From Lysobacteraceae bacterium NML07-0707 (GTDB taxonomy: Bacteria > Pseudomonadota > Gammaproteobacteria > Xanthomonadales > Xanthomonadaceae), in NCBI GenBank assembly GCA_002798295.1, contig NWQT01000019.1, positions 62,001 to 126,000 on the forward strand: a DNA stretch of 64,000 nt. The letters are read 5' to 3'. Shown in pieces: positions 39,296 to 52,392 of this stretch. The notes beneath the pieces are model-generated. The model was not told the DNA's origin, did not search any database, and saw only the letters and a program-made list of their open reading frames with translations. The stretch's first letter is position 1, and every line of letters begins with the position of its first letter. A program made the translations under genes and the position numbers.

Positions 39296-40486
39296 ATGGC
39301 AAAAGAAAAGTTTGAGCGCACCAAGCCGCACGTGAACGTCGGCACCATCGGTCACGTTGACCACGGCAAGACCACGCTGACCGCAGCCCTGACCAAGGTG
39401 GGCGCAGAGCGCTTCGGTGGCGACTTCAAGGACTATTCCTCGATTGACGCGGCGCCGGAAGAAAAGGCGCGTGGTATCACCATCTCCACCGCACACGTGG
39501 AATACGAGTCCCCGACCCGTCACTACGCGCACGTGGACTGCCCCGGCCACGCCGACTATGTCAAGAACATGATCACCGGCGCGGCTCAGATGGACGGCGC
39601 GATTCTGGTGTGCTCGGCCGCTGACGGCCCGATGCCGCAGACCCGCGAACACATCCTGCTGGCTCGCCAGGTGGGCGTGCCCTACATCGTCGTGTTCCTG
39701 AACAAGGCCGACATGGTGGACGACGCCGAGCTGCTGGAACTGGTGGAAATGGAAGTGCGCGAGCTGCTCAGCAAGTACGACTTCCCGGGTGACGACACCC
39801 CGATCGTCAAGGGTTCGGCACTGAAGGCGCTGGAAGGCGACCAGTCGGAAATCGGCGTGCCGGCCATCTTGCAGCTGGTGGACGCACTGGACAGCTACAT
39901 CCCGGAACCCGAGCGTGACGTGGACAAGCCGTTCCTGATGCCGGTGGAAGACGTGTTCTCGATCTCCGGTCGCGGCACCGTGGTGACCGGCCGTATCGAA
40001 CGCGGCGTGATCAAGGTGGGCGACGAAATCGAAATCGTCGGTATCCGTCCGACCACCAAGACCACCGTGACCGGCGTGGAAATGTTCCGCAAGATGCTGG
40101 ATCAGGGTCAGGCGGGCGACAACGCAGGCCTGCTGCTGCGCGGCACCAAGCGTGACGAAGTGGAGCGCGGCCAAGTGCTGGCCAAGCCGGGCAGCATCAC
40201 CCCGCACACCGACTTCGAAGCCGAAGTGTACGTGCTGTCGAAGGACGAAGGCGGCCGTCACACCCCGTTCTTCAAGGGCTACCGCCCGCAGTTCTACTTC
40301 CGTACCACCGACATCACCGGTGCGGTGGAGCTGCCCGAAGGTGTTGAAATGGTGATGCCGGGCGACAACGTCAAGATGACGGTGAGCCTGATCAACCCGG
40401 TGGCGATGGACGAAGGCCTGCGCTTTGCCATCCGCGAAGGTGGCCGTACCGTCGGCGCCGGCGTGGTCGCCAAGATCATCAAGTAA
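39296..40486 (+). CDS. tuf: Elongation factor Tu, copy 2
   Basis: 396 aa, identical protein to copy 1 at 8523-9713. About 18 scattered synonymous differences at DNA level; flanks are unrelated. Being the last gene of the str operon is typical. The two copies are direct repeats of 1.19 kb about 30.8 kb apart, bracketing rpoBC and the whole first defence island. Confidence 0.99.
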
Positions 40487-40515
40487 TCCTTGATATCTGC
40501 CACAAGGCAATACTC

Positions 40516-40548
40516 AAACCCCCGGCGATAAGCCGGGGGTTTGTTTTT
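40516..40548 (+). terminator. Terminator of the str operon
   Basis: Perfect 11-bp stem AAACCCCCGGC/GCCGGGGGTTT with 5-nt loop, then GTTTTT. 29 bp after tuf2; it insulates the CRISPR-Cas locus from tuf transcription. Confidence 0.92.
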
Positions 40549-40602
40549 GCGCATTTGCAAAGCCGGTGTTGGGCTAAAGTGCGCTCTTTGAAGGGGACTT
40601 TT

Positions 40603-41574
40603 ATGGACGATATCGCCGCTTCCGACCTTAAAACCATCCTGTTATCCAAGCGTGCCAATATTTATTACCTGCAGCATTGCCGGGTGCTGGTCAACGGCGG
40701 GCGGGTGGAATACGTCACCGATGCCGGCAAGCAATCGCTGTACTGGAATATCCCCATTGCCAATACCTCGGTGGTACTGCTTGGCACCGGCACCTCGGTG
40801 ACGCAGGCGGCGATGCGTGAGTTTGCCAAGGCCGGAGTGATGGTGGGCTTTTGTGGCGGTGGCGGCACGCCACTGTTTTCTGCCAACGAGGTGGATATTG
40901 ATGTGGCCTGGTTCAGCCCGCAGAGCGAATACCGCCCCACCGAATATCTGCAAGCCTGGGTATCGTTCTGGTTTGATGATGAGGCCAGGCTTGCGGCGGC
41001 CAAGCAACTACAGCAGGCGCGTTTGCACTGTATTGCACAGCAGTGGCAGAACTCAAAGCCACTGCGCGAGGTCGGTTTCGAGGTGGATGCCGCTGCACTG
41101 AAAAAGCTGCTGGAAAAATCCGCACAAGTGGTTGCCAGTTGCCCCGATATCACCGCACTGCTGACCGAAGAAGCTAGGCTCAGCAAAGCCTTGTTTGCGT
41201 TGGCCGCGCGCACCAGCGGCTATGGCGACTTTAGCCGCGCCAAGCGCGGCACCGGCCTTGACCCTGCCAACCGCTTTCTGGATCACGGCAACTATCTGGC
41301 TTATGGGCTGGCGGCCAGCGCCACCTGGGTGTTGGGGCTGCCGCATGGCTTGGCTGTATTGCATGGCAAGACCCGGCGAGGTGGCTTGGTATTTGATGTG
41401 GCTGACTTGGTCAAGGACGCGGTGGTATTGCCGCAAGCCTTTGTCTCGGCCATGCGTGGCGACGAAGAACAAGCCTTTCGGCAAGCCTGCATTGAGCAGC
41501 TGACCCGCATGGAGGCACTGGATTTCATGATTGAGACCTTGAAAGACATCGTCATGCAGGGACACAGCGCATGA
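40603..41574 (+). CDS. cas1: Type I-F CRISPR integrase Cas1
   Basis: 323 aa, usual length for Cas1f. With Cas2 it inserts new spacers at the leader end of the array. Conserved start region DLKTILLSKRANIYYLQHCRVLVNGGRVEYVT, mid motif VMVGFCGGGGTPLF, and the catalytic domain with NRFLDHGNYLAYGLAASATWVLGLPHGLAVLHGKTRRGGLVFDVADLVKDAVVLPQAF, written here only to locate the Glu/His/Asp active-site segment near 227-285. ATG 40603 has SD AAGGGGA. Overlaps cas2-3 by ATGA. Confidence 0.95.
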   Translation: MDDIAASDLKTILLSKRANIYYLQHCRVLVNGGRVEYVTDAGKQSLYWNIPIANTSVVLLGTGTSVTQAAMREFAKAGVMVGFCGGGGTPLFSANEVDIDVAWFSPQSEYRPTEYLQAWVSFWFDDEARLAAAKQLQQARLHCIAQQWQNSKPLREVGFEVDAAALKKLLEKSAQVVASCPDITALLTEEARLSKALFALAARTSGYGDFSRAKRGTGLDPANRFLDHGNYLAYGLAASATWVLGLPHGLAVLHGKTRRGGLVFDVADLVKDAVVLPQAFVSAMRGDEEQAFRQACIEQLTRMEALDFMIETLKDIVMQGHSA

Positions 41575-44500
41575 ATATCCTGCTGATTTGCGAGTGCCGT
41601 GGCCAGGCGCTGAAGCAGACCCGCCGCATTCTTGATCAGTTTGCCGAGCGGCGCGGCGAGCGCACTTGGCAAACGCCGATAACCCGGGATGGGCTGGATA
41701 CGCTGCGCCGTTTGCTGCGCAAAACGGCGCGTAAAAATACCGCCGTGGCTTGTCACTGGATACGCGGCATCAACCATTCCGAACTGTTGTGGGTGGTGGG
41801 CGATGCCACGCGCTTCAATGCTCAGGGTGCAGTGCCCACCAACACCACGCGAGGCAATGTGATACGCGCCGACGATGAAAACGACTGGCATAGCGCTGAG
41901 GATATCCGTCTGCTGATGCAGATGGCTGCATTGCTGCATGACCTTGGCAAGGCCAGCGTAGCCTTCCAGAAACGACTGCGCAGCCAGCAGTTCGAGCGCA
42001 ATCTGTACCGGCACGAATGGCTGTCACTGCGGCTATTTCTGGCCTTTGTGGGCGCCGATGACGATGCCACCTGGTTGCAGCGTTTGGCCGCGCCCACGGC
42101 AGAAGATGATGCCGCCTGGCTGGATAAGACACGGCTGTTCCGCGATGGTCTGGATGTCGGCAGCAAGCCGCCGTTCAAGGATTTGCCGCCGCTGGCCGCT
42201 GCAATCGCCTGGCTGGTGGTGACGCACCACCGGTTGCTGACTTTGCCGGTCGTCCAGAATACGCAAAACCCCTGGTTTGGGAAGAAGTCTGCAAGTTTCA
42301 ATCCGCAGGATTTGCAGATGGAAAGACTATGGCAAAGCATCCATGCCGGCTGGAACGACTGGAATCCCGAGCTTGCCAATGCATCGCCAAGCCAATTACA
42401 GCCCTATTGGCAAATGGCGGGCGAGCTGCCGGTACTGCTGCCAGCATGGCGGGCGCGTGCCAGCAAGCTTGCCCGGCAGTTGCTGGCGCTGCAAGGCAAA
42501 GCAGGCAAGGGCGGCTGGCTGGAAAACCCGTATGTCATGCATATCGCCCGCATGGGGCTGATGCTGGCCGACCATCACTATTCATCACTGAAGCCAGATG
42601 ATGGCCGCTGTGTTGCCGGGGATGATGCCTGCACTCTGTATGCCAATACCGATAGTGATGGCAGGCTCAAGCAGAAGCTGGACGAGCATCTGCTGGGGGT
42701 GGCGCGAGATGCGGGGCATATTGGCTATCACTTGCCGAGCTTTGCCAAGCAACTGCCACATTTGCCGTGCAAGTCGTTGAGGCGACGCAGCAAAGATGCG
42801 CGCTTTCGCTGGCAGGACAAGGCCTTTGATGCGGCAGAAAGCCTGCGTCACAAAGCAGAAGAACATGGCGCTTTCATCGTCAACATGGCTTCCACTGGAC
42901 GCGGCAAGACGCTGGCCAATGCCCGCATCATGGCGGCGCTGTCTCACCCGCAACGCGGGATGCGTTGCAGCTTTGCCGTCGGCCTGTGCAGCCTGACCCT
43001 GCAAACTGGGCGTGCCTTCCAGAAAGACCTGAACCTGAAGGACGATGACATCGCCATTCGTGTGGGCGGAGCAGCCAGCCGCGAATTGTTCGAGTATCAC
43101 CAACAGCAGGCCGAGCGTAGTGGCTCGGCTTCAAGCCAGTCGCTGATGGAAGAGGCAGGCAGTGTCGTTTACGAAGGCCAGATGGCTGAGCATCCGCTGT
43201 TGCGCATGGCGCTGCACGATGTGCATATCAAGCGTCTGTTGAGTGCGCCGGTGCTGGTGTGCACCATCGACCACCTGACGCCGGCGACCGAAGCGCAGCG
43301 TGCTGGACGGCAAATTGCGCCCATGCTGCGGCTGATGAGCAGCGACCTGGTGCTGGATGAGCCGGACGACTTTGACCTTGACGATATTCCGGCGTTGGCA
43401 AGGCTGGTGCATTGGGCGGGACTCTTGGGCAGCAAGGTTCTGCTGTCATCGGCCACTTTGCCGCCGGACTTGGTGCAGGGGCTGTATCAGGCCTATGCTG
43501 CAGGCCGCGCCCATTATCAGCGCAATCGCGGCGTGCACGGAGGTCAGGCCACCATCCCGGAAGTCGCCTGCCTCTGGGTGGACGAATACGCCGTTGCAGC
43601 GGCTGCATGCAGTGATTTGGCGCAGTTCAAGACGCAGCATCAGGCCTTCATTGCAAAGCGGCTCAAATCATTGAGCCGGGAAGCGCCCAAGCGCAAGGGC
43701 GAGTTGTTGCCGCTGGAGATTGCCGTAGCCAAGTCGGAAATCCGCAAGGCGTTTGCCGTGCAGCTGCAGACGGCCATGTTGCAAGCCCATCAACGCCATG
43801 CACAAACGGATATGGCCAGCGGTAAACAGGTCAGCTTCGGGCTGGTGCGCATGGCAAATATTGACCCATTGCAAGACGTTGCGCGCGAATTGTTCCGGCT
43901 GGGGGCGCCCGCAGATACCCAAATCCATTTGTGTGTGTATCACTCACGCTTCCCGCTGCTTATGCGCTCGGCAATCGAGCAGGTGCTGGACAAAGTGCTG
44001 GATCGTCGCGGAGCAACCGACCCGGTGTTGTCGCGGCCGGAAGTGCGTGAACTATTGGCGCGTTATCCTGCCAAGAATCATGTGTTTGTGGTGCTGGCCA
44101 GTCCAGTGGCCGAGGTGGGGCGTGACCACGATTACGACTGGGCTGTGGTTGAGCCTTCTTCCATGCGCTCGTTGATTCAGCTGGCCGGACGGGTGTGGCG
44201 GCATCGTGAGGGAAGCCCGGATAGCCCGAATGTGCTGATTTTCGAGCGCAACCTGCGCAGTTTCGAGAAGCCGGGGGAGGCGGCATTTATCCGGCCGGGG
44301 TTTGAGGAGGAGCAATCCTCCCTGCTCGATAAAAAAGCACGTCCGCTGCGCATGAGCAGCAACAACTTGCAAATCCTGCTGCCCGACGAGCACTACCAAG
44401 TCCTTGATGCCCGCCCGCGTATCCAGCGGACGGAGGACATAAGAACATTACGGAAGTCGAGATTGGTGGATTTGGAGCATCTCCGCATGTATCTGCTGCT

Positions 44501-44918
44501 GCGCACCGACAAGCCACAGGCGCCCAATGCCAGTACCTTCTGGACATCGCCACTGGCGCACCTGACCTGGGCCATGCCGCAGCAGCAACCATTCCGCGAC
44601 TCGTCCTATGGTGAGCAAACCTTCGTGTTCCTGCCAGACGAAGATGAAATCTGCCTTGAGGCCCACTTCGTTTTGCAAGAGGGAAAGCACAGCCTGTACG
44701 CCTCGGCAAAAGGCGAGGTCAAGCCGTTGCAACTGGAAATTGCCCCCGGTATTTCGCCCTGGATGCAGTTTGACTTGATCGAGCTTTTAAGGCCTTTGGC
44801 AGAAGAAAAGTCCATGAGCCTGATGGATGCGGCCAAACGCTATACCGAAGTTGAAGCCCCGAAGCGCACCGGGCTTAATCAATGGTACTGGGATCCGGTG
44901 CTGGGGGTACTTAGATGA
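41571..44918 (+). CDS. cas3: Cas2-Cas3 fusion nuclease-helicase of type I-F
   Basis: 1115 aa. Residues 1-~95 are a Cas2-like ferredoxin domain (MNILLICECRGQALKQTRRI), the fusion diagnostic of type I-F. Then the HD nuclease (LLHDLGKAS, His123-Asp124; THHR near 219), helicase Walker A STGRGKT (441-447), DEAD-box variant DEPD (596-599) and a C-terminal domain. Degrades Cascade-marked DNA and takes part in primed adaptation with Cas1. Start overlaps the cas1 stop (ATGA). Confidence 0.96.
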   Translation: MNILLICECRGQALKQTRRILDQFAERRGERTWQTPITRDGLDTLRRLLRKTARKNTAVACHWIRGINHSELLWVVGDATRFNAQGAVPTNTTRGNVIRADDENDWHSAEDIRLLMQMAALLHDLGKASVAFQKRLRSQQFERNLYRHEWLSLRLFLAFVGADDDATWLQRLAAPTAEDDAAWLDKTRLFRDGLDVGSKPPFKDLPPLAAAIAWLVVTHHRLLTLPVVQNTQNPWFGKKSASFNPQDLQMERLWQSIHAGWNDWNPELANASPSQLQPYWQMAGELPVLLPAWRARASKLARQLLALQGKAGKGGWLENPYVMHIARMGLMLADHHYSSLKPDDGRCVAGDDACTLYANTDSDGRLKQKLDEHLLGVARDAGHIGYHLPSFAKQLPHLPCKSLRRRSKDARFRWQDKAFDAAESLRHKAEEHGAFIVNMASTGRGKTLANARIMAALSHPQRGMRCSFAVGLCSLTLQTGRAFQKDLNLKDDDIAIRVGGAASRELFEYHQQQAERSGSASSQSLMEEAGSVVYEGQMAEHPLLRMALHDVHIKRLLSAPVLVCTIDHLTPATEAQRAGRQIAPMLRLMSSDLVLDEPDDFDLDDIPALARLVHWAGLLGSKVLLSSATLPPDLVQGLYQAYAAGRAHYQRNRGVHGGQATIPEVACLWVDEYAVAAAACSDLAQFKTQHQAFIAKRLKSLSREAPKRKGELLPLEIAVAKSEIRKAFAVQLQTAMLQAHQRHAQTDMASGKQVSFGLVRMANIDPLQDVARELFRLGAPADTQIHLCVYHSRFPLLMRSAIEQVLDKVLDRRGATDPVLSRPEVRELLARYPAKNHVFVVLASPVAEVGRDHDYDWAVVEPSSMRSLIQLAGRVWRHREGSPDSPNVLIFERNLRSFEKPGEAAFIRPGFEEEQSSLLDKKARPLRMSSNNLQILLPDEHYQVLDARPRIQRTEDIRTLRKSRLVDLEHLRMYLLLRTDKPQAPNASTFWTSPLAHLTWAMPQQQPFRDSSYGEQTFVFLPDEDEICLEAHFVLQEGKHSLYASAKGEVKPLQLEIAPGISPWMQFDLIELLRPLAEEKSMSLMDAAKRYTEVEAPKRTGLNQWYWDPVLGVLR

Positions 44919-44920
44919 GA

Positions 44921-44940
44921 GGGGAAGCTATGTATTCCCC
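44921..44940. terminator. Small hairpin between cas2-3 and the crRNA-like element
   Basis: Perfect 6-bp stem GGGGAA/TTCCCC with 8-nt loop, 2 bp after the cas2-3 stop. No U-run. It could end the leftward crRNA-like RNA and/or protect the cas1-cas3 mRNA end. Confidence 0.45.
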
Positions 44941-44965
44941 GTAAGCTGCCTATGCGGCAGTGGAT
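44938..44965 (-). repeat. Degenerate I-F CRISPR repeat (handle lost)
   Basis: 21 of 28 positions match the array repeat in inverse orientation. The hairpin CTGCC-GCATA-GGCAG is intact. Changes are at the 5' end (ATCC for GTTC) and in the last four bases (CGGG for GAAA). Confidence 0.8.
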
Positions 44966-44991
44966 TAGGGCTTGGAAATCTCCCAAGCAAT

Positions 44992-45019
44992 TTTCTGAGC
45001 TGCCTGTACGGCAGTGTTG
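44992..45019 (-). repeat. Degenerate I-F CRISPR repeat (handle retained)
   Basis: 22 of 28 positions match the array repeat in inverse orientation. Stem CTGCC-GTACA-GGCAG intact; the 3' end CTCAGAAA keeps 7 of 8 handle bases; the 5' end is CAAC instead of GTTC. Confidence 0.82.
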
Positions 45020-45024
45020 ATTGA

Positions 45025-45033
45025 ATTCTACCA
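45025..45033 (-). promoter_or_regulatory. Extended -10 promoter for the crRNA-like RNA
   Basis: Minus-strand TGGTAGAAT: extended -10 (TGn) plus TAGAAT, one mismatch from TATAAT. Predicted start near 45018, the first base of the handle-retaining repeat. No good -35 at 17 bp, as allowed for extended -10 promoters. Confidence 0.55.
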
Positions 45034-45035
45034 GC

Positions 45036-45063
45036 TTGGCTTGTAAATTATCCCAAGCAATGG
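45036..45063 (-). promoter_or_regulatory. Protospacer-like site A for the pseudo-spacer, with CC PAM
   Basis: Minus strand: CC (45063-45062), then 26 nt from 45061 down to 45036. The first 11 nt ATTGCTTGGGA match the pseudo-spacer exactly; first mismatch at position 12. Allowing one inserted base, similarity continues through ATTT.CAAGCC, implying common origin. Confidence 0.7.
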
Positions 45064-45087
45064 ATTAATAAATTTCCCAGGCAATGG
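45060..45087 (-). promoter_or_regulatory. Protospacer-like site B for the pseudo-spacer, with CC PAM, abutting the csy1 -35
   Basis: Minus strand: CC (45087-45086), then ATTGCCTGGGAAATTT (45085-45070). 14 of the first 16 nt match the pseudo-spacer, with mismatches only at positions 6 and 12. The PAM is 1 bp from the -35 box TTGACA, so Cascade bound here would block RNA polymerase. Confidence 0.7.
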
Positions 45088-45088
45088 A

Positions 45089-45116
45089 TTGACATTAAGT
45101 TTTGGGTGGGTAATAT
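45089..45116 (+). promoter_or_regulatory. Predicted promoter driving the csy1-csy2-csy3-cas6f leader
   Basis: Perfect -35 TTGACA (45089-45094), 16-bp spacer, -10 TAATAT (45111-45116). Predicted start near 45122, where a very stable hairpin begins. Confidence 0.65.
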
Positions 45117-45120
45117 AGGC

Positions 45121-45150
45121 GAACGGCTCCCGCTGCAACGGGAGCCGTTC
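45121..45150 (+). promoter_or_regulatory. Perfect hairpin at the predicted 5' end of the csy transcript
   Basis: 12-bp stem GAACGGCTCCCG/CGGGAGCCGTTC with loop CTGCAA, starting at the predicted transcription start; no U-tract after it. Its GGCTCC and GGAGCC segments recur at 45234-45239 and 45245-45250, so a long nested alternative fold enclosing the mini-ORF is possible. Confidence 0.6.
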
Positions 45151-45200
45151 AGAGCAATCTGGTATCCCATCAATTCGGCGAAGAAAGTAAGGAGGTCGAG

Positions 45201-45233
45201 ATGATTGGCACACATCGCGCCTTAAGAGGTTGA
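45201..45233 (+). CDS. 10-codon mini-ORF, possible CreT-like element
   Basis: Reads MIGTHRALRG and stops, preceded by AAGGAGG 5 nt before the ATG, the strongest SD in this gap. Codons 8-9 are TTA-AGA, both codons that look rare in this GC-rich genome. It lies between the Cascade-targeted promoter and csy1. In remembered archaeal CreT, a strong start followed by rare Arg codons sequesters a minor tRNA. It could equally be a leader peptide or chance. Confidence 0.4.
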   Translation: MIGTHRALRG

Positions 45234-45315
45234 GGCTCCGATCAGGAGCCCATCCGTCTAAAACCACTCGCAGCAGATTGCTGCGGGCATTCTATACCAT
45301 GACCACTATGGTCAT
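45234..45315 (+). promoter_or_regulatory. Three consecutive hairpins before csy1
   Basis: GGCTCC/GGAGCC (45234-45250), CGCAGCA/TGCTGCG with a 3-nt loop (45269-45285) and ATGACCA/TGGTCAT with a 3-nt loop (45299-45315). The last one ends directly at the AAGGAG Shine-Dalgarno of csy1. No U-tracts. Confidence 0.5.
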
Positions 45316-45331
45316 AAGGAGTTGATTGCCT

Positions 45332-46696
45332 GTGGATTCACGTAAGCGAAAGTTTTATGAAGCCATCGCCCGCTTTATCAAGGAGCGGCGCGATGCCAAG
45401 CTCAAAGATGCAGAGGCTGCCGATTCAGCACAGGCGGCCAAATATGACTATGACACCTGGCTGGCTGATGCCGCGCGTCGCGTGGCACAAATTCAGATGG
45501 TCACCCATGTGCTGAAAGCGACGCACCCCGATGCCAAGGGCAGCAGCCTGTTTGTGCCGCCTGCCAATTTGCCGGCTCGTGATGAACTTGGCTCGCATGT
45601 ACTGGGCAGGCAGTTTGCCGAAGATGTCGTGGGCAATGCCGCAGCTTTGGATGTTTACAAATTGCTGAAGCTGGAAGTGGAAGGCCAGCGTTTGCTGGAC
45701 TGGTTGCTGCAAGCAGATACCGACCTGCTTGCAGCACTGTCAGACAATCCTGACACCGCCAGGGCTTATGCCGATGCTTTTTGCAGCTTACAGCGTGAGG
45801 CGGACAGCTACGCCAGCCACACCTATGCCAAGCAGTTGTATTGGTGCACAGGCGAGGATGCCTGTGATGACGCCCAATACATTCTGTTGCAGCCGATGTT
45901 TCCAAGCAGCTTGGTGCAAGCGGTACACGAGGCCATTCAATACAGCCGCTTTGATGTGGCCATTGTCGAGGCTCGGCGCGCGCGACGGGAAAAGAAGCCC
46001 AGCGATATGCAAATTCCGGAATATCCCGAACTTGCCATTCGCAAGCTGGGCGGCACCAAACCGCAGAATATTTCGCAGCTCAATAGCGAGCGTGGCGGCA
46101 GCAACTATTTGCTGGCCTCATTCCCCCCGATTTGGGATGGCTACCGTCCACGCAGTTTCTTGAATCTGGATACCGCCTTCATGCGCCTTTTGCATTTCCA
46201 GGATATGCAGCAGCAGCTTGAAGCATTTGCACGACATCTTGGCGCGTATAAGCAGCACCAAATGCAGCAAGACCAGAAGCGCCGTGCCATGGAACAGCGA
46301 CTGGGCGGCACTTTGACTGCCTTTGCGGCTACGGTGCGTGATTCCTATCCGCCCGGCTGGACACGTGATGCCGCCTGCCGGCTTCCTCTTTGCGAGCAAC
46401 TCTGGCTTGACCCGGAGCGTGCCCAGCTGCCCAATCGGGATCAGGCTCAAGACCCGGAAGGCTATGCCGCAGACGAAACCTTCAAGGCCGCTTGGGAGAA
46501 GCAGGATTGGCCGGATGAAATTGCCGAGCGCTTTGCGCAGTGGCTCAATCAATGGCTGCGCGATAACGGCTTTGCCGTCGGCAGTGTCGAGTTGCGGCAT
46601 TTTGCGCGACAGGCGGTGGTGGATGCCAACTGGCCGAACCCGATTCGGCGTGACTTGCCATCCAGCCGCGATTGGCACACGGAGGTATCGGCATGA
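45332..46696 (+). CDS. csy1: Type I-F Cascade large subunit Csy1 (Cas8f)
   Basis: 454 aa from GTG 45332 (VDSRKRKFYEAIARFIKERR). AAGGAG lies 10 nt upstream; an in-frame TTG at 45326 would leave only 4 nt and is less likely. Cas8f reads the CC PAM and opens DNA. Recognisable Csy1 stretches: HPDAKGSSL, KLGGTKPQNISQLNSERGG, LLASFPPIW. First gene of csy1-csy2-csy3-cas6f; overlaps csy2 by ATGA. Confidence 0.93.
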   Translation: MDSRKRKFYEAIARFIKERRDAKLKDAEAADSAQAAKYDYDTWLADAARRVAQIQMVTHVLKATHPDAKGSSLFVPPANLPARDELGSHVLGRQFAEDVVGNAAALDVYKLLKLEVEGQRLLDWLLQADTDLLAALSDNPDTARAYADAFCSLQREADSYASHTYAKQLYWCTGEDACDDAQYILLQPMFPSSLVQAVHEAIQYSRFDVAIVEARRARREKKPSDMQIPEYPELAIRKLGGTKPQNISQLNSERGGSNYLLASFPPIWDGYRPRSFLNLDTAFMRLLHFQDMQQQLEAFARHLGAYKQHQMQQDQKRRAMEQRLGGTLTAFAATVRDSYPPGWTRDAACRLPLCEQLWLDPERAQLPNRDQAQDPEGYAADETFKAAWEKQDWPDEIAERFAQWLNQWLRDNGFAVGSVELRHFARQAVVDANWPNPIRRDLPSSRDWHTEVSA

Positions 46697-47673
46697 GTCG
46701 CTGCCCGGATTACAGTCATTTGCTGGTCTTGCCACGCTTGCAGGTGCAGGCAGCCAATGCCATCTCCAGCCCACTGACCCACGGTTTCCCTTCCATTACG
46801 GCCTTTATCGGCCTGATGTGGGCTTTGCAGCGCAAGCTGGCTGCCTCGGGCATTCCGGGGCTGAAATTCCGAGCCGTGGGTGTGGTCTGCCACCGCCATC
46901 AGGCGCTGGTGAACGATGCCTATATCAAGGCCTTCAGCCTGACGCGCAATCCCATTGGAAGGGATGGCAAAACGGCGGCCATTGTGGAAGAAGGCCGCAT
47001 TCATCTGCAAATCAGTCTGGTGTTGGCCGTGGATTGGGTCAAGCTTGGTATGGATGAAGCGGCGGACCAGGCCTTGGCAGAGCAAATAGCGCAAATGGTG
47101 CAGACCATGCGCATTGCAGGTGGCGTGCTGTTGCCGGCAAAGCGTTACACCGCACCGTACTGGGTGGCGATGACCGGCGATGCGGCTGGCCGGCAGGCAC
47201 TTTTTGAGCGGCTTCGCCTGCGCCTGTTGCCCGGCTTTGCGTTGGTGGCGCGTGATGACCTGCTGGCAGAAGCACTCACTACATTGCGTGAAGAAAACCC
47301 TGAAGCCACGCTGCTGGATGCCTGGCTATCGCGCTCGCGCCTGAACTGGCGTTATGACAAGGGGGAAGGCCGTTGGCAGCATGACCGACCCAAAGGTAGT
47401 GGCTGGGTCGTGCCCATCCCGGTGGGCTATGCCGCGCTGACAGAGAGGCAGGCACCGGGAACGGTCGCCAATGCCCGCGATGAAGGCACGCCGTTCCAAT
47501 TTGTCGAAAGCCTGTATTCGCTGGGTGAATGGGTTAGCCCGCACCGGCTGCAAACCGCAGAGCAACTGCTTTGGTATGCCGATAGCCCGCCCGGGCAAGG
47601 CCTGTATCGCTGCCGCAATGACTACCGCTGTAACGATGACTCGGATGACGAGTTTTATTCCATCTTCGACTGA
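46693..47673 (+). CDS. csy2: Type I-F Cascade subunit Csy2 (Cas5f)
   Basis: 326 aa. Caps the 5' handle of crRNA with Csy1. Conserved [28 protein letters not shown] segment near the start, ending in [13 protein letters not shown] 46693 with SD GGAGG inside csy1; four-base overlap with csy1. Confidence 0.93.
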
Positions 47674-47687
47674 CAAGGAGCTGCATC

Positions 47688-48785
47688 ATGAGTAAAGAAA
47701 CCCCTTCCGTTTTGGCTTTTGAACGCAAACTCGACCCGTCCGATGCACTCTTTCATTCAGGCGATTGGGCGGCGCGTAATGATGACCGGGGCTGGACGCC
47801 GGTGCGCCTTCAGGAAAAATCGGTGCGCGGCACGATTTCCAATCGCCTGAAAGCTGCTGAGCAAGACCCGCTCAAGCTCGATGCCGCGATCGACAAGCCC
47901 AATCTGCAAACCGTGGATGTTGCCGCCCTGCCAATGGATGCCGACACCCTGCGGGTGCGCTTCACCTTGCGCGTATTGCCGGGCGTGGGTCAGCCTTCGG
48001 CTTGTAACAAGGCCGATTATCAAAAAAAGCTCATCACCTTGGCGCAGGACTATGCGGCCCGGCACGGCTTCCGTGAACTGGCGCGCCGCTATGCCATCAA
48101 TCTTGCCAATGGCCGCTTCTTGTGGCGCAACCGCGTGGGCGCAGAAGATGTGGAAGTGGAAGTCGCCCGCTTTCAGCAGGGTCAAGCAGCGCTTGTTGGC
48201 CGTTTTGATGCCCTGAGTTTCTCGCTGCGTGACTTCAATGTGCCTAGTGATGTGCAGGATCAGGTGCAAGCCCTTGCCGATTTGATTGCCCAGGGTTTGC
48301 GTGGCGAAACCCATGTGCTGCTGCAAATCACCGCCTATGTGCGTATCGGAAATGGGCAGGAGGTTTTCCCCTCGCAGGAGTTGATTCTGGATAAAGAAGG
48401 TGGACGAGCTGCAAAAGGTAAAATGGTCGCCAAAGAAAAGGAAGAAGAAAATGAGCAGGCACGAGTGCATAAAAAGAGCAAAACGCTTTATTTTGTAGGT
48501 TCAAAAAAAGACGGCATTGCCGCCATGCACTCGCAGAAAATCGGCAATGCCCTGCGCACCGTGGATGACTGGTATCAAGAGGCGGAGGGTAATGGCCCAA
48601 TTGCCGTGGAGCCTTATGGTTCGGTGACGACCCAAGGCAAAGCCTATCGCCAGCCCAAAGGCAGCAAAGATGACTTCTATACCCTGTTCGATGGCTGGAT
48701 GCTGAAAGACAAAGTGCCGACTGAAGCGCAGCAGCACTATGTCATGGCGGTATTGATTCGTGGTGGCGTATTCGGCGAGGCTTGA
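47688..48785 (+). CDS. csy3: Type I-F Cascade backbone subunit Csy3 (Cas7f)
   Basis: 365 aa RAMP protein; six copies coat the crRNA spacer and flip out every sixth base. Typical start [22 protein letters not shown] and C-terminal [22 protein letters not shown]; 14 bp after csy2. Confidence 0.95.
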
Positions 48786-48786
48786 G

Positions 48787-49347
48787 ATGGATGCATATAT
48801 CGAATTCACCCTGCAACCGGATGATGAATTTCCGCAGCATGTGCTGATGGATGCACTTGTGGCGAAACTTCATCGCGCCTTGGTGATGCTTGAAGAAAAC
48901 AGCATCGGCATCAGCTTTCCCGGCTGGCGTGATGGCGCTTATCCCACCTTGGGCTTGAAGCTACGCTTGCATGGGCAGGAAACGGCGCTTGAGTGCTTGA
49001 TGCAGCAGGACTGGTTGCGCGGGATGCGCGACCACTTGCATAGCACCGGGCTTATGCCTGCACCCAAGCCACAGGGCTGGCTGCAAGTGGGGCGGCGTCA
49101 GGCCAAGAGTGCAAAAAACATGCGCAAGCGTGCCATGCGTCGGCATCGCTTGAGTGCAGATGCAGCACGCGAATGCATCCCTGATGGCTCGGGCGACCGC
49201 CTGGACTTGCCTTTTGTTACCCAGTACAGCCGTAGCACTGGCCAACGCTATCGCCTCTACCTTGATCAGCGCCCAGTCCAACAGCCCAGCCAAGGCGGCT
49301 TCAATAGCCACGGACTCAGCCTTGGCGGCTGCGTCCCCCTGTTTTGA
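48787..49347 (+). CDS. cas6f: CRISPR RNA endonuclease Cas6f (Csy4)
   Basis: 186 aa. Cleaves the repeat at the base of its CTGCC/GGCAG hairpin and stays bound. His29, the catalytic position in P. aeruginosa Csy4, is present (AKLHRAL); an Arg-rich helix (KNMRKRAMRRHR) fits RNA binding; the C-terminal signature is GGFNSHGLSLGGCVPLF. Starts 1 bp after csy3; the array leader follows directly. Confidence 0.95.
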   Translation: MDAYIEFTLQPDDEFPQHVLMDALVAKLHRALVMLEENSIGISFPGWRDGAYPTLGLKLRLHGQETALECLMQQDWLRGMRDHLHSTGLMPAPKPQGWLQVGRRQAKSAKNMRKRAMRRHRLSADAARECIPDGSGDRLDLPFVTQYSRSTGQRYRLYLDQRPVQQPSQGGFNSHGLSLGGCVPLF

Positions 49348-49477
49348 CCCAAAAATTTCAATGGCCAAGGACGGCCTTTGAAATCAATAAAATACAAACC
49401 AAACAGAAAATTGGGTTTGCAAGCGGGAAATCCTCATTGTTCTTTGAAAAACAATTGATTAGAGTGGAGTCGCTCTA
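49348..49477 (+). promoter_or_regulatory. CRISPR leader
   Basis: A+T-rich 130 bp between cas6f and the first repeat. Two IHF-like sites, each one mismatch from WATCAANNNNTTR: AATCAATAAAATA (49382-49394, plus) and AATCAATTGTTTT (minus, about 49447-49459). TAGAG/CTCTA forms a stem ending at the first repeat. IHF bends the leader during I-F spacer integration; leader polarity agrees with repeat decay at the far end. Confidence 0.6.
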
Positions 49478-51056
49478 GTTCACTGCCGAATAGGCAGCTT
49501 AGAAATTGGCGTAGCCGATCTGGTTGAGCGTCGGCCCGTTCACTGCCGAATAGGCAGCTTAGAAAATACTGTTCACACAGCTTCTTCAGTTTGAAGTGTT
49601 CACTGCCGAATAGGCAGCTTAGAAAGAATGTCGGCGCGGGGGAAGCGCGCAAGAGCAGTTCACTGCCGAATAGGCAGCTTAGAAATGCAACCGGAACAAG
49701 AAGAACGCCTGCGTCGCGTTCACTGCCGAATAGGCAGCTTAGAAACGTGACGCGCGTGTTTTTCCCGTTGGCGTGGGGTTCACTGCCGAATAGGCAGCTT
49801 AGAAAGATTCGCCGACGCCATGTTGAAAGTGCGAAAGGTTCACTGCCGAATAGGCAGCTTAGAAAAGCCGCCACGGCCATGCGGCGCGTGGTGTGTAGTT
49901 CACTGCCGAATAGGCAGCTTAGAAAGCGACATACCTGTCGCTCTACGCTTCTGTAGAGTTCACTGCCGAATAGGCAGCTTAGAAATACCACTGCTGCGTA
50001 GTCGTACACCTTCGCCGGTTCACTGCCGAATAGGCAGCTTAGAAACACCCGATGAAATTACCGCAGCGAGGGTTCAAGTTCACTGCCGAATAGGCAGCTT
50101 AGAAAAGTTGGACCTCTATCGGCTGCGGTGTTTTCGCGTTCACTGCCGAATAGGCAGCTTAGAAAGACAGCGCAAACCCCTGCAAAACGTCGTTTTTGTT
50201 CACTGCCGAATAGGCAGCTTAGAAAACGCAGGGCGACGCGGCGGTGCTGGGCGCAGGGTTCACTGCCGAATAGGCAGCTTAGAAATCGCCCGGCGCGCAC
50301 TCAAATGCCTGCGCAACGTTCACTGCCGAATAGGCAGCTTAGAAATTTTTACGGCTCGGATGGTCGGCAACATCTACGTTCACTGCCGAATAGGCAGCTT
50401 AGAAAAGTGAGCACCCGTTACTACATCCTCACCGTAAGTTCACTGCCGAATAGGCAGCTTAGAAATCGACAACCGTCACACGATCCGCAACTGCGCCGTT
50501 CACTGCCGAATAGGCAGCTTAGAAAATTGGATTTGCGGTGTTAGCGTCGCACTCGCAGTTCACTGCCGAATAGGCAGCTTAGAAAGTCGATAGTAGGGGC
50601 AAAATATACAGTCCTATGTTCACTGCCGAATAGGCAGCTTAGAAATTGACATGCTTTGTCCAGTGATCTACCCCGACGTTCACTGCCGAATAGGCAGCTT
50701 AGAAAAGTAACGCGCTTCACAACGCACCCCTCAAGAAGTTCACTGCCGAATAGGCAGCTTAGAAAACGCGGAAAGTGCTGGTCAAAAAGCCAATCGTGTT
50801 CACTGCCGAATAGGCAGCTTAGAAAGGTGAAATCTTGGCGTACAGAAACAAGATGATGTTCACTGCCGAATAGGCAGCTTAGAAACTCAAGAAAGCCCAC
50901 GCCGCCATGAAAGCCGCGTTCACTGCCGAATAGGCAGCTTAGAAAATTGCGTTGATAGGCCGCAGACTGCATTCTCGGTTCACTGCCGCACAGGCAGCTT
51001 AGAAGAGCAAGCGCCACGCCAGCTGGCCGCGAACGGCAGGTTCACTGCCGAATAGG
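49478..51056 (+). CRISPR. Type I-F CRISPR array, 27 repeats (26 full, 1 truncated), 26 spacers
   Basis: 28-nt repeats beginning GTTCACTGCC and ending CTTAGAAA, every 60 bp from 49478. The first 25 (last at 50918) are identical. Repeat 26 (50978) has GCACA in the loop and a final G. Repeat 27 (51040-51056) keeps only GTTCACTGCCGAATAGG. Spacers 1-25 are 32 nt; spacer 26 is 34 nt. Decay at the right end and cas genes/leader at the left put the leader on the left and transcription on the plus strand. No spacer matches DNA in this window that I could see by eye. Confidence 0.98.
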
Positions 51057-51088
51057 TGGAGCAATAGGTATTGGCAGGATGCAGTGGC

Positions 51089-51117
51089 TTGCAATCGCCC
51101 TGAAAGGCTGGCAGAAT
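51089..51117 (+). promoter_or_regulatory. Predicted promoter of the S10 operon
   Basis: -35 TTGCAA (51089-51094), 17-bp spacer, -10 CAGAAT (51112-51117), the same -10 as the tRNA-tuf1 promoter. Begins 33 bp after the last truncated repeat; predicted start near 51124. Confidence 0.55.
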
Positions 51118-51160
51118 GCGCGACCGATTGTGGAAGTGTGTATTGCTTCTGCAGTGCCAG

Positions 51161-51194
51161 CGAAATGAGGCGCAGGAAGCGCCTCGTATTCGCC
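51161..51194 (+). promoter_or_regulatory. rpsJ leader hairpin shared with the rpsL leader
   Basis: Perfect 7-bp stem GAGGCGC/GCGCCTC (51167-51185) around loop AGGAA, within a 34-nt block matching 35793-35826 at 28 positions. It is about 43 nt past the predicted start site; the rpsL copy is about 37 nt past its own. The rest of the 51057-51410 gap shows nothing else I can name. Confidence 0.55.
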
Positions 51195-51410
51195 AGACAA
51201 GGACAGGTTGCGTGGCTTTCCCGTTTGTGGGGATGTTTGCGCGTTTGTTTTTGCTCTGGGCGGGCCGGGTGACCGGGCCGCCATTGTTGTTGAATGGATG
51301 GTTGTAAGGGGTGGGGCGCAAATAGCCGTTTCACCTGTCGCTCTTTTGAACTTCCTGCGTTTGCAGGGGCTTTGCTGAAAGGCAGGGCTATTAACCGAGG
51401 AACTTCCGTC

Positions 51411-51722
51411 ATGACGGACCAAAAAATCCGTATTCGGCTCAAGGCCTTCGATCATCGCCTGATCGATCGCTCGGCCAGCGAGATTGTCGAGACGGCCAAG
51501 CGGACCGGCGCGCAAGTGCGTGGCCCGATTCCGCTGCCGACCAAGACTGAACGCTACACCGTGTTGGTCTCGCCGCACGTCGACAAGGACGCGCGCGACC
51601 AGTACGAAACCCGCACGCACAAGCGTGTGCTCGATATCGTTGACCCCAATGACAAGACCGTGGACGCGCTGATGAAGCTCGAACTGGCTGCCGGTGTTGA
51701 CGTGCAAATCAAGTTGACCTGA
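51411..51722 (+). CDS. rpsJ: 30S ribosomal protein S10
   Basis: 103 aa; also binds NusB and NusG. Start [21 protein letters not shown] at 51411 with SD GAGGAA; conserved [20 protein letters not shown]. First gene of the S10 operon, normally directly behind tuf. Confidence 0.99.
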
Positions 51723-51735
51723 GGAGCGCATCATC

Positions 51736-52392
51736 ATGTCGACGAAAATTCATCAACTGGGTCTGGTCGGGCGCAAGGCCGGCATGAGCCGCGTGTTTAC
51801 CGAAGATGGCAAGTCCATCCCGGTGACGCTGATTGAAGCCACCCCGAACCGCATCACCCAAATCAAGACCGTTGAAAACGACGGCTACAGCGCTGTGCAG
51901 GTCACTGCCGGTGTCAAGCGCGCTGCACTGGTCAACAAGGCGGGCACGGGTCACCTGGCCAAGGCCAAGGTGGAAGCCGGTCGTGGCTTGTGGGAATTCC
52001 GCGTGGCTGACGACAAGCTCTCCGGCTTTGAAGTGGGCGGCGAAATTCGCGCCGACATCTTTGCCGAAGGTCAGCTGGTCGATGTCCAGGGCGTGACCAA
52101 GGGTAAGGGCTTCCAGGGCACCATCAAGCGCTGGAACTTCACCATGGGTGATGCCACCCACGGTAACTCGCTGTCGCATCGTGCCCCGGGTTCGATCGGT
52201 CAGCGTCAGACCCCGGGCCGCGTGTTCCCGGGCAAGAAGATGTCCGGTCACATGGGTGCCGAAACCCAGACCACCCAGAACCTTCAGGTTGTGAAGGTGG
52301 ATGCCGAGCGCGGCCTGATTGCCGTGCGTGGTGCGGTGCCGGGTGCGCCGGGTGGTGATGTCATCGTGCGTCCGGCAAGCAAGGGAGCATGA
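51736..52392 (+). CDS. rplC: 50S ribosomal protein L3
   Basis: 218 aa, early 23S assembly protein near the peptidyl-transferase centre. [14 protein letters not shown] start, [17 protein letters not shown] and [14 protein letters not shown] are present. SD GAGGAG. Confidence 0.99.

Follow-up and report, generated by a model that had tools for sequence, protein, structure and literature searches.

A 2023 survey by Shmakov (NAR) reportedly describes mini-arrays that partially match cas gene promoters, notably that of cas8, and the promoters of toxin–antitoxin cargo; one I-F1 case is said to have been tested, and the locus that we analyse here may already be in the survey. Type I-F CreTA modules have been reported in the cas3–csy1 gap of three Acinetobacter strains, WCHA45, LoGeW2-3 and ANC3789 (PMC10097628). 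There they are arranged as psiR1–psiS–psiR2, use a CC PAM and carry a Shine–Dalgarno (SD) sequence and a 33-bp mini-ORF divergent from creA, and a bactericidal CreT is repressed in a manner that depends on CreA and Csy. The LoGeW2-3 creT was toxic, whereas the ANC3789 creT was not toxic in strain AYE; in WCHA45 the U4–G12 pair of the 5-bp start-codon hairpin was needed, and a U4-to-A change abolished toxicity. The CreTA of Haloarcula hispanica and Halobacterium hubeiense, according to an excerpt of PMC8501985, is haloarchaeal and, unlike the module described below, has a TTC PAM and a tRNA-sequestering CreT. CreR (Liu 2023, Cell Host Microbe, as cited in an excerpt of PMC13131331) is reported to provide autorepression in types I-B, I-E and V-A.

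The window, by which we mean the whole 64,000-nucleotide stretch of DNA analysed here, carries a complete type I-F system (cas1f, cas3f and csy1-4, plus a CRISPR array). This Lysobacteraceae genome probably carries a CreTA-type module of type I-F at the locus between cas3 and csy1. Its features, by position in the window, are as follows.

41571..44918, plus strand: cas3f (Cas2-3), TIGR02562
44938..44965, minus strand: psiR1, degenerate repeat on the creA 3′ side of the pseudo-spacer, 21/28 against the array repeat
44966..44991, minus strand: psiS, the creA pseudo-spacer, 26 nt by repeat alignment, between psiR2 and psiR1
44992..45019, minus strand: psiR2, degenerate repeat and predicted source of the 5′ handle, 22/28 against the array repeat
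45045..45063, minus strand: Site A, CC PAM (45063-45062) and 17-nt core, 14/17 matched
45069..45087, minus strand: Site B, CC PAM (45087-45086) and 17-nt core, 14/17 matched
45089..45116, plus strand: predicted creT promoter, TTGACA - 16 bp - TAATAT, by consensus scan (−35 at 45089-45094)
45121..45150, plus strand: P1, 12-bp hairpin at the predicted transcript 5′ end, by RNA folding
45190..45195, plus strand: SD AGGAGG of the mini-ORF, by sequence
45201..45233, plus strand: 33-bp mini-ORF MIGTHRALRG, candidate creT core, sequence ATGATTGGCACACATCGCGCCTTAAGAGGTTGA
45234..45250, plus strand: 6-bp GC hairpin after the mini-ORF stop, lacking a U tract, a weak terminator at best
45269..45294, plus strand: P5 hairpin and ATTCTA, recurring upstream of csy1 in relatives, by folding and alignment
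45326..46696, plus strand: csy1 (cas8f), TIGR02564, start as in the ORF listing
49478..51005, plus strand: canonical CRISPR array (26 repeats; repeat sequence GTTCACTGCCGAATAGGCAGCTTAGAAA)

The genes with TIGR02562 and TIGR02564 matches are separated by about 407 bp, which is where CreTA is located, and this gap contains two degenerate repeats around a psiS, the arrangement of creA in type I-F CreTA. Read leftward from 44991 on the minus strand, psiS begins ATTGCTTGGGAGATTTCC. The psiR2 handle is CTCAGAAA, compared with CTTAGAAA in the array, and processed creA would carry the 8-nt handle CUCAGAAA. Rfam scored psiR2 and psiR1 as CRISPR-DR4 at 33.2 and 24.8 bits, both below the gathering score of 35, and a search of 44800-51200 returned, besides CRISPR-DR4, one poor lncRNA match. 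Consensus scanning gave no clear minus-strand promoter for creA. The same scan showed that the psiS inverted repeat and a plus-strand T run form a terminator-like site at 44970-44988 (+), just after cas3. At the far end of the system, an additional partial CRISPR repeat lies at 51040-51056, past the degenerate last repeat of the array.

Both target sites had been proposed in the first-pass annotation, and direct reading of the letters bears out its description of each. Site A consists of a CC and an exact match to psiS at positions 1-11, the 11-nt seed, with mismatches at 12, 14 and 17. Site B has a CC followed by identity over 16 nt save positions 6 and 12, and in the whole core it departs from psiS at 6, 12 and 17 alone. 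Type I effectors leave every sixth nucleotide of a target unread. As had also been noted, Site B adjoins the −35 TTGACA, from which its PAM is separated by 1 bp. When psiS was shuffled 100,000 times, 2 shuffles scored 14/17 or better next to a CC somewhere in the 312-bp region, and none yielded an exact 11-nt seed. A search of all 54 contigs of the genome (2.39 Mb) with the pattern CCATTGCNTGGGANATTT, positions 6 and 12 being open, gave a match without mismatch only at Site B and a match with one mismatch only at Site A; the next best matches carry two. On these shuffle counts, and on the genome-wide uniqueness of Sites A and B, a chance match between psiS and the sites was rejected. The locus has a partial psiS match to a CC-flanked site at the creT promoter, this promoter being called by consensus alone.

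The predicted creT promoter was the only sigma-70-like site in 44850-45450, a region in which shuffles gave a mean of 0.6. It had been labelled the csy1 promoter, a label that needs correcting: the −10 ends 210 bp upstream of the listed csy1 start, and the SD-preceded 33-bp mini-ORF intervenes. This candidate creT is divergent from creA, as is the SD and 33-bp mini-ORF of LoGeW2-3 (NZ_CP024012.1, locus L166), which we used as a positive control and equated with the published locus by strain name and content. With psiR2 taken as the repeat nearest csy1, the control psiS matched its site at 14/17, with mismatches at 6, 12 and 14, a score reached in none of 1000 shuffles. Its mini-ORF, ATGTTTAGCACACATTTAGTTAGAAGGGTCTAG, also has 33 bp and agrees with that of the window at 13 of the first 15 nt and at 19 of all 33. 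A locus from the window's genus (L004) shares 13/15 with LoGeW2-3 and 11/15 with the window, and has no stop at codon 11. The psiS match was 15/17 in each of two plasmid loci, from Acinetobacter sp. ANC 7970 (L167) and from Vitreoscilla filiformis (L168), again with none of 1000 shuffles as high; no mini-array was found in the gaps of about 33 and 15 bp of two others (L169 and L170).

Set against the Acinetobacter modules, the window is similar in the size of its gap (about 400 bp), its two degenerate repeats, short psiS, CC PAM and partial match, in the divergence of creT from creA, and in an SD and a 33-bp mini-ORF with potential pairing between the AUG and the codon 5 CAU. It differs in host (Lysobacteraceae, not Acinetobacter), in the putative status of its creT toxicity and in the length of psiS, which is 26 nt by repeat alignment and 20 in WCHA45. 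The window has two tandem targets upstream of the −35, whereas the WCHA45 target lies downstream of the creT start site; the window also lacks the 4/12 hairpin pair of WCHA45 and has the long 5′ hairpin P1. The start-codon stem that could form in the window has 4 bp (gAUG/CAUc) and a 9-nt loop, with A4 and A12 unpaired and an outer pair G(−1)–C16. Because A4 stands opposite A12, the WCHA45 rule would predict weak or no toxicity, unless the outer pair compensates. In the minimum-energy fold the AUG–CAU hairpin is absent, the start-region UGAU pairing instead with an upstream AUCA, and among relatives shuffles reached the observed start-codon stem 30% of the time on average, which is within chance per locus. 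The absence of the hairpin from the minimum-energy fold and the different placement of the WCHA45 target both count against a CreTA-type module, as do three loci without a target among the relatives described below.

We surveyed csy1 loci from 60 relatives and from genomes of the genus (17), family (297), order (398) and class (369), sets that overlap; further loci were taken from genome contigs (80 of 104 named loci). Among the matches listed, the nearest named relatives were Lysobacteraceae bacterium NML08-0793 and NML95-0200, with Csy1 identities of 99 and 95%. Collapsing identical upstream sequence reduced at least 162 loci with a Csy1 match to 129. In 56 of these psiR2 scored 12.3 or higher, a cut-off chosen after the list was viewed. 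Seven of the 56 (L014, L051, L056, L086, L095, L130 and L145) were dropped for want of a psiR1-like stem, leaving 49, and position counts were confined to the 46 with a psiS match of at least 11/17. These comprise 35 long-gap loci, in which 198-285 bp separate the site from csy1, and a remaining 11 (L047, L050, L055, L060, L061, L107, L108, L111, L121, L153 and L163); L050 and L061 (216 and 214 bp) were grouped with the 11 by eye because their csy1 frame seemingly begins further upstream. The plasmid loci L166-L170 stand outside the 129. For L166-L168 we took psiR2 as the repeat nearest csy1, the survey having picked the better-scoring copy; because scoring misassigned psiR2 in these three, loci in which psiR1 is better than psiR2 may have escaped the survey.

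In 46 of the 49 mini-array loci, psiS matched a CC-flanked site of its own gap at 11-17 of 17 positions; the other three (L096, L109 and L159) had no target in their own gap (8, 7 and 7 of 17). Shuffled psiS equalled the score of its own locus in at most 3 of 200 cases for each of the 46. The score was reached in none of the other 48 gaps for 37 loci and in one to three of them for nine (L001, L084, L087, L099, L103, L121, L127, L128 and L141). Positions 6, 12 and 18 were mismatched in 37, 41 and 38 of the 46 loci, and every other position from 1 to 17 in 0-15; position 18 lies outside the 17-nt window used for choosing the site. At positions 19-26, mismatches occurred in at least 50% of the loci still having spacer there. 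Among 37 non-redundant psiS, which share fewer than 12/17 bases, mismatches numbered 64 of 74 at positions 6 and 12 versus 55 of 555 at the other fifteen of positions 1-17 (Fisher p 2.4e-43, to be taken as a guide only because loci share ancestry). In the same set, the 31, 33 and 29 mismatches at positions 6, 12 and 18 equal the expectation for independent bases (30.4, 30.2 and 28.1).

Judged from these sequences, the 6-nt mismatch period is the footprint of Cascade reading. A partial literature search, with the Shmakov survey outside its scope, found no earlier position-wise mismatch count for type I-F. The excerpt of PMC8501985 reports that positions 6 and 12 of H. hubeiense CreA could be mutated without effect; the window resembles that CreTA in its two degenerate repeats and in the apparent dispensability of these psiS positions. 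Guide-directed binding through a PAM and limited pairing, with mismatches at flipped-out positions, had been proposed from the window's letters, and the proposal gains support from the joint change of psiS and site across the 49 loci and from the 6-nt period. The family serves as a natural read-out, in 37 non-redundant guide–target pairs, of how the Csy complex reads DNA at regulatory targets.

A TTG-type −35 (at least 4/6) begins 0-3 nt from the PAM in 30 of the 46 loci (3.2 expected), and eight loci have two tandem sites 18-24 bp apart (the near relatives L001 and L085, and L007, L099, L112, L118, L125 and L148). By eye, Site A of L085 matches the psiS of L084 at 15/17 versus 13/17 for its own psiS, which points to tandem sites that were duplicated at different times. 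Twenty-five of the 35 long-gap loci (4.2 expected) have a stem of at least 8 bp close to the start of the transcript, the place of P1.

In the window, 45120-45325 folds at z = −5.4. RNAalifold returned one short helix from 35 MAFFT-aligned sequences and only the P5 hairpin from 23 aligned loci, so P1 to P3 lack covariation support from these alignments. In the P5 consensus hairpin, 3 of 8 pairs changed on both sides among 23 aligned relatives, a set with the window outside it. P5 is GC-rich and is followed by ATTCTA, without the U run of a terminator. In alignment A2, which comprises 23 of the 35 long-gap loci, picked by eye, ATTCT could alternatively pair with the ribosome-binding region of csy1 in 84% of the cells.

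As far as sequence comparison goes, RNA-guided repression of the promoter beside creA is very likely. For processing, binding, repression and toxicity at the window locus, we infer the following course. Csy4 would cut the creA transcript in psiR2 and psiR1 and so produce a crRNA-like guide. A guide-loaded Csy complex would then find the CC at Site B or A and pair as far as about position 17; sitting at Site B, whose PAM is 1 bp from the −35, it would block RNA polymerase. Binding would be expected to occur without Cas3 recruitment, because pairing covers about 17 nt, positions 6, 12 and 18 are unread and a full R-loop is missing. The promoter would drive creT, predicted to be a structured RNA with a strong SD and the 33-bp mini-ORF. 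Whenever Csy is absent, inhibited or occupied by other crRNAs, creT would be transcribed and, by analogy with Acinetobacter CreT, translation would be jammed. A creT that jams translation upon Csy loss or block would leave the cell addicted to its CRISPR system; if the window creT is toxic, this system would protect itself by addiction against both loss and anti-CRISPRs. The module is of a known kind; what this analysis adds is a pair of tandem sites lying upstream of the −35, a natural footprint and two wirings within type I-F. The lineage would be a further addition unless the supplements of earlier reports already include it, and it may be among the 19 further modules mentioned in PMC10097628.

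A CreTA-type module could also control more than its toxin. Autorepression of the Csy genes had been predicted for this promoter, and part of that prediction may stand. Between the mini-ORF and csy1, consensus scans of the window gave no strong terminator or terminator-like site on the plus strand: the hairpin at 45234..45250 was not called, and the other terminator-like site in the scan lies at 45285-45269 (−). Read-through into csy is thus possible, and because no strong terminator follows it, the mini-ORF could be a csy1 leader and csy autorepression may ride on the same switch. The unsupported part is that the controlled unit would simply be csy1-4, since an SD and mini-ORF come first; with a creT-like transcript ahead of csy1, derepression would release the toxic RNA first and csy expression second at most. 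That the Csy-occupied promoter governs both the CreT toxin and the csy1-4 operon, creT having no strong terminator, is a possibility that we hold tentatively. Were it true, Csy loss or an anti-CRISPR block would first lead to fresh Csy and would kill only cells unable to restore it, and the tandem sites would tune the threshold. Read-through into csy1-4 is what decides between pure addiction and addiction with autorepression.

Autorepression by itself, as in CreR, was how the first-pass annotation saw the locus, with the guide repressing a csy1-4 promoter; on this reading the mini-ORF stretch would be a non-toxic 5′ leader. Such regulation is known from the types in the excerpt cited above, and the window shares with CreR, as described there, a crRNA-like guide and limited pairing to a promoter in a cas locus; CreR is generally not toxin-coupled, whereas the window has a CreT-type mini-ORF between promoter and csy1. 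The terminator scan of the window and the absence of the AUG–CAU hairpin from its minimum-energy fold both fit this reading, and just 4 of the 35 long-gap loci had a terminator-like site beyond the SD. Five loci (L055, L060, L108, L121 and L153) also fit it, having a CC-flanked site 40-80 bp from csy1 that leaves little room for a CreT. One of them, L121, is from Betaproteobacteria bacterium MS502, and L060 has a broken csy1. In L108 and L121 the promoter TTGACA begins directly after the PAM, and these two, and also L055, L060 and L153, look like direct csy1 autorepression in type I-F. For the long-gap loci the evidence points the other way. Between site and csy1, 33 of the 35 have a start codon with an SD matching at least 5/6 (12.8 expected), and 22 have one with the exact AGGAGG (1.0 expected). 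The gap has a median of 441 bp where a mini-array pair is present (n = 45) versus 92 bp where the psiR2 score is below 12 (n = 67), which indicates that the extra stretch comes with the module. The window mini-ORF, moreover, has the 33-bp length of the published modules and the near-identical start that it shares with the toxic creT of LoGeW2-3. Autorepression as the sole function of the window locus is therefore unlikely. With CreT-like long gaps and direct csy1 control at short gaps in one subtype, the step between autorepression and addiction becomes testable in either direction.

Decay of the mini-array to a remnant without present function might explain why both repeats are degenerate and why 3 of the 49 loci have no recognisable target, but the window retains 14/17 at both of its sites, and across loci the pairing positions are held in psiS and target while 6, 12 and 18 drift, which argues for continued selection for RNA-guided reading; we rejected this explanation as very improbable. 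Least probable of all, and likewise rejected, is that the repeated CCATTGC.TGGGA is the operator of a protein repressor, an alternative that the first-pass annotation had itself named and that is contradicted by the relatives: two tandem near-identical copies beside a −35 are a classical operator layout, but the motif has no constant recognition sequence, varying widely among relatives in step with each locus's own psiS, and it starts exactly at spacer position 1 beside the CC, is free to differ at 6, 12 and 18 and, at position 10, follows the guide even among close relatives, psiS and Site B alike having G in the window and in L085, and A in L084.

Three loci, the window included, gave information on genomic context. 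The whole I-F system of the window (39296-52389) is flanked by tuf on one side and by ribosomal protein genes on the other, with rplC at 51736. A further locus from the window's genus (L165) has fusA and tuf on one flank and rplC and rplD on the other. L164 has fusA and tuf on one flank, with no rplC match in about 4.2 kb beyond csy4. Elsewhere in the survey, seven loci (L107, L112, L127, L139, L159, L087 and L155) carry protein toxin–antitoxin genes between cas3 and creA, encoded on the opposite strand to csy1. Pfam identified a FitA-like antitoxin and a PIN toxin in L107, a PIN protein in L087 and a HepT-like protein in L155; by eye, L112, L127, L139 and L159 resemble L107. The putative protein toxins of these seven loci are possibly repressed by CRISPR.
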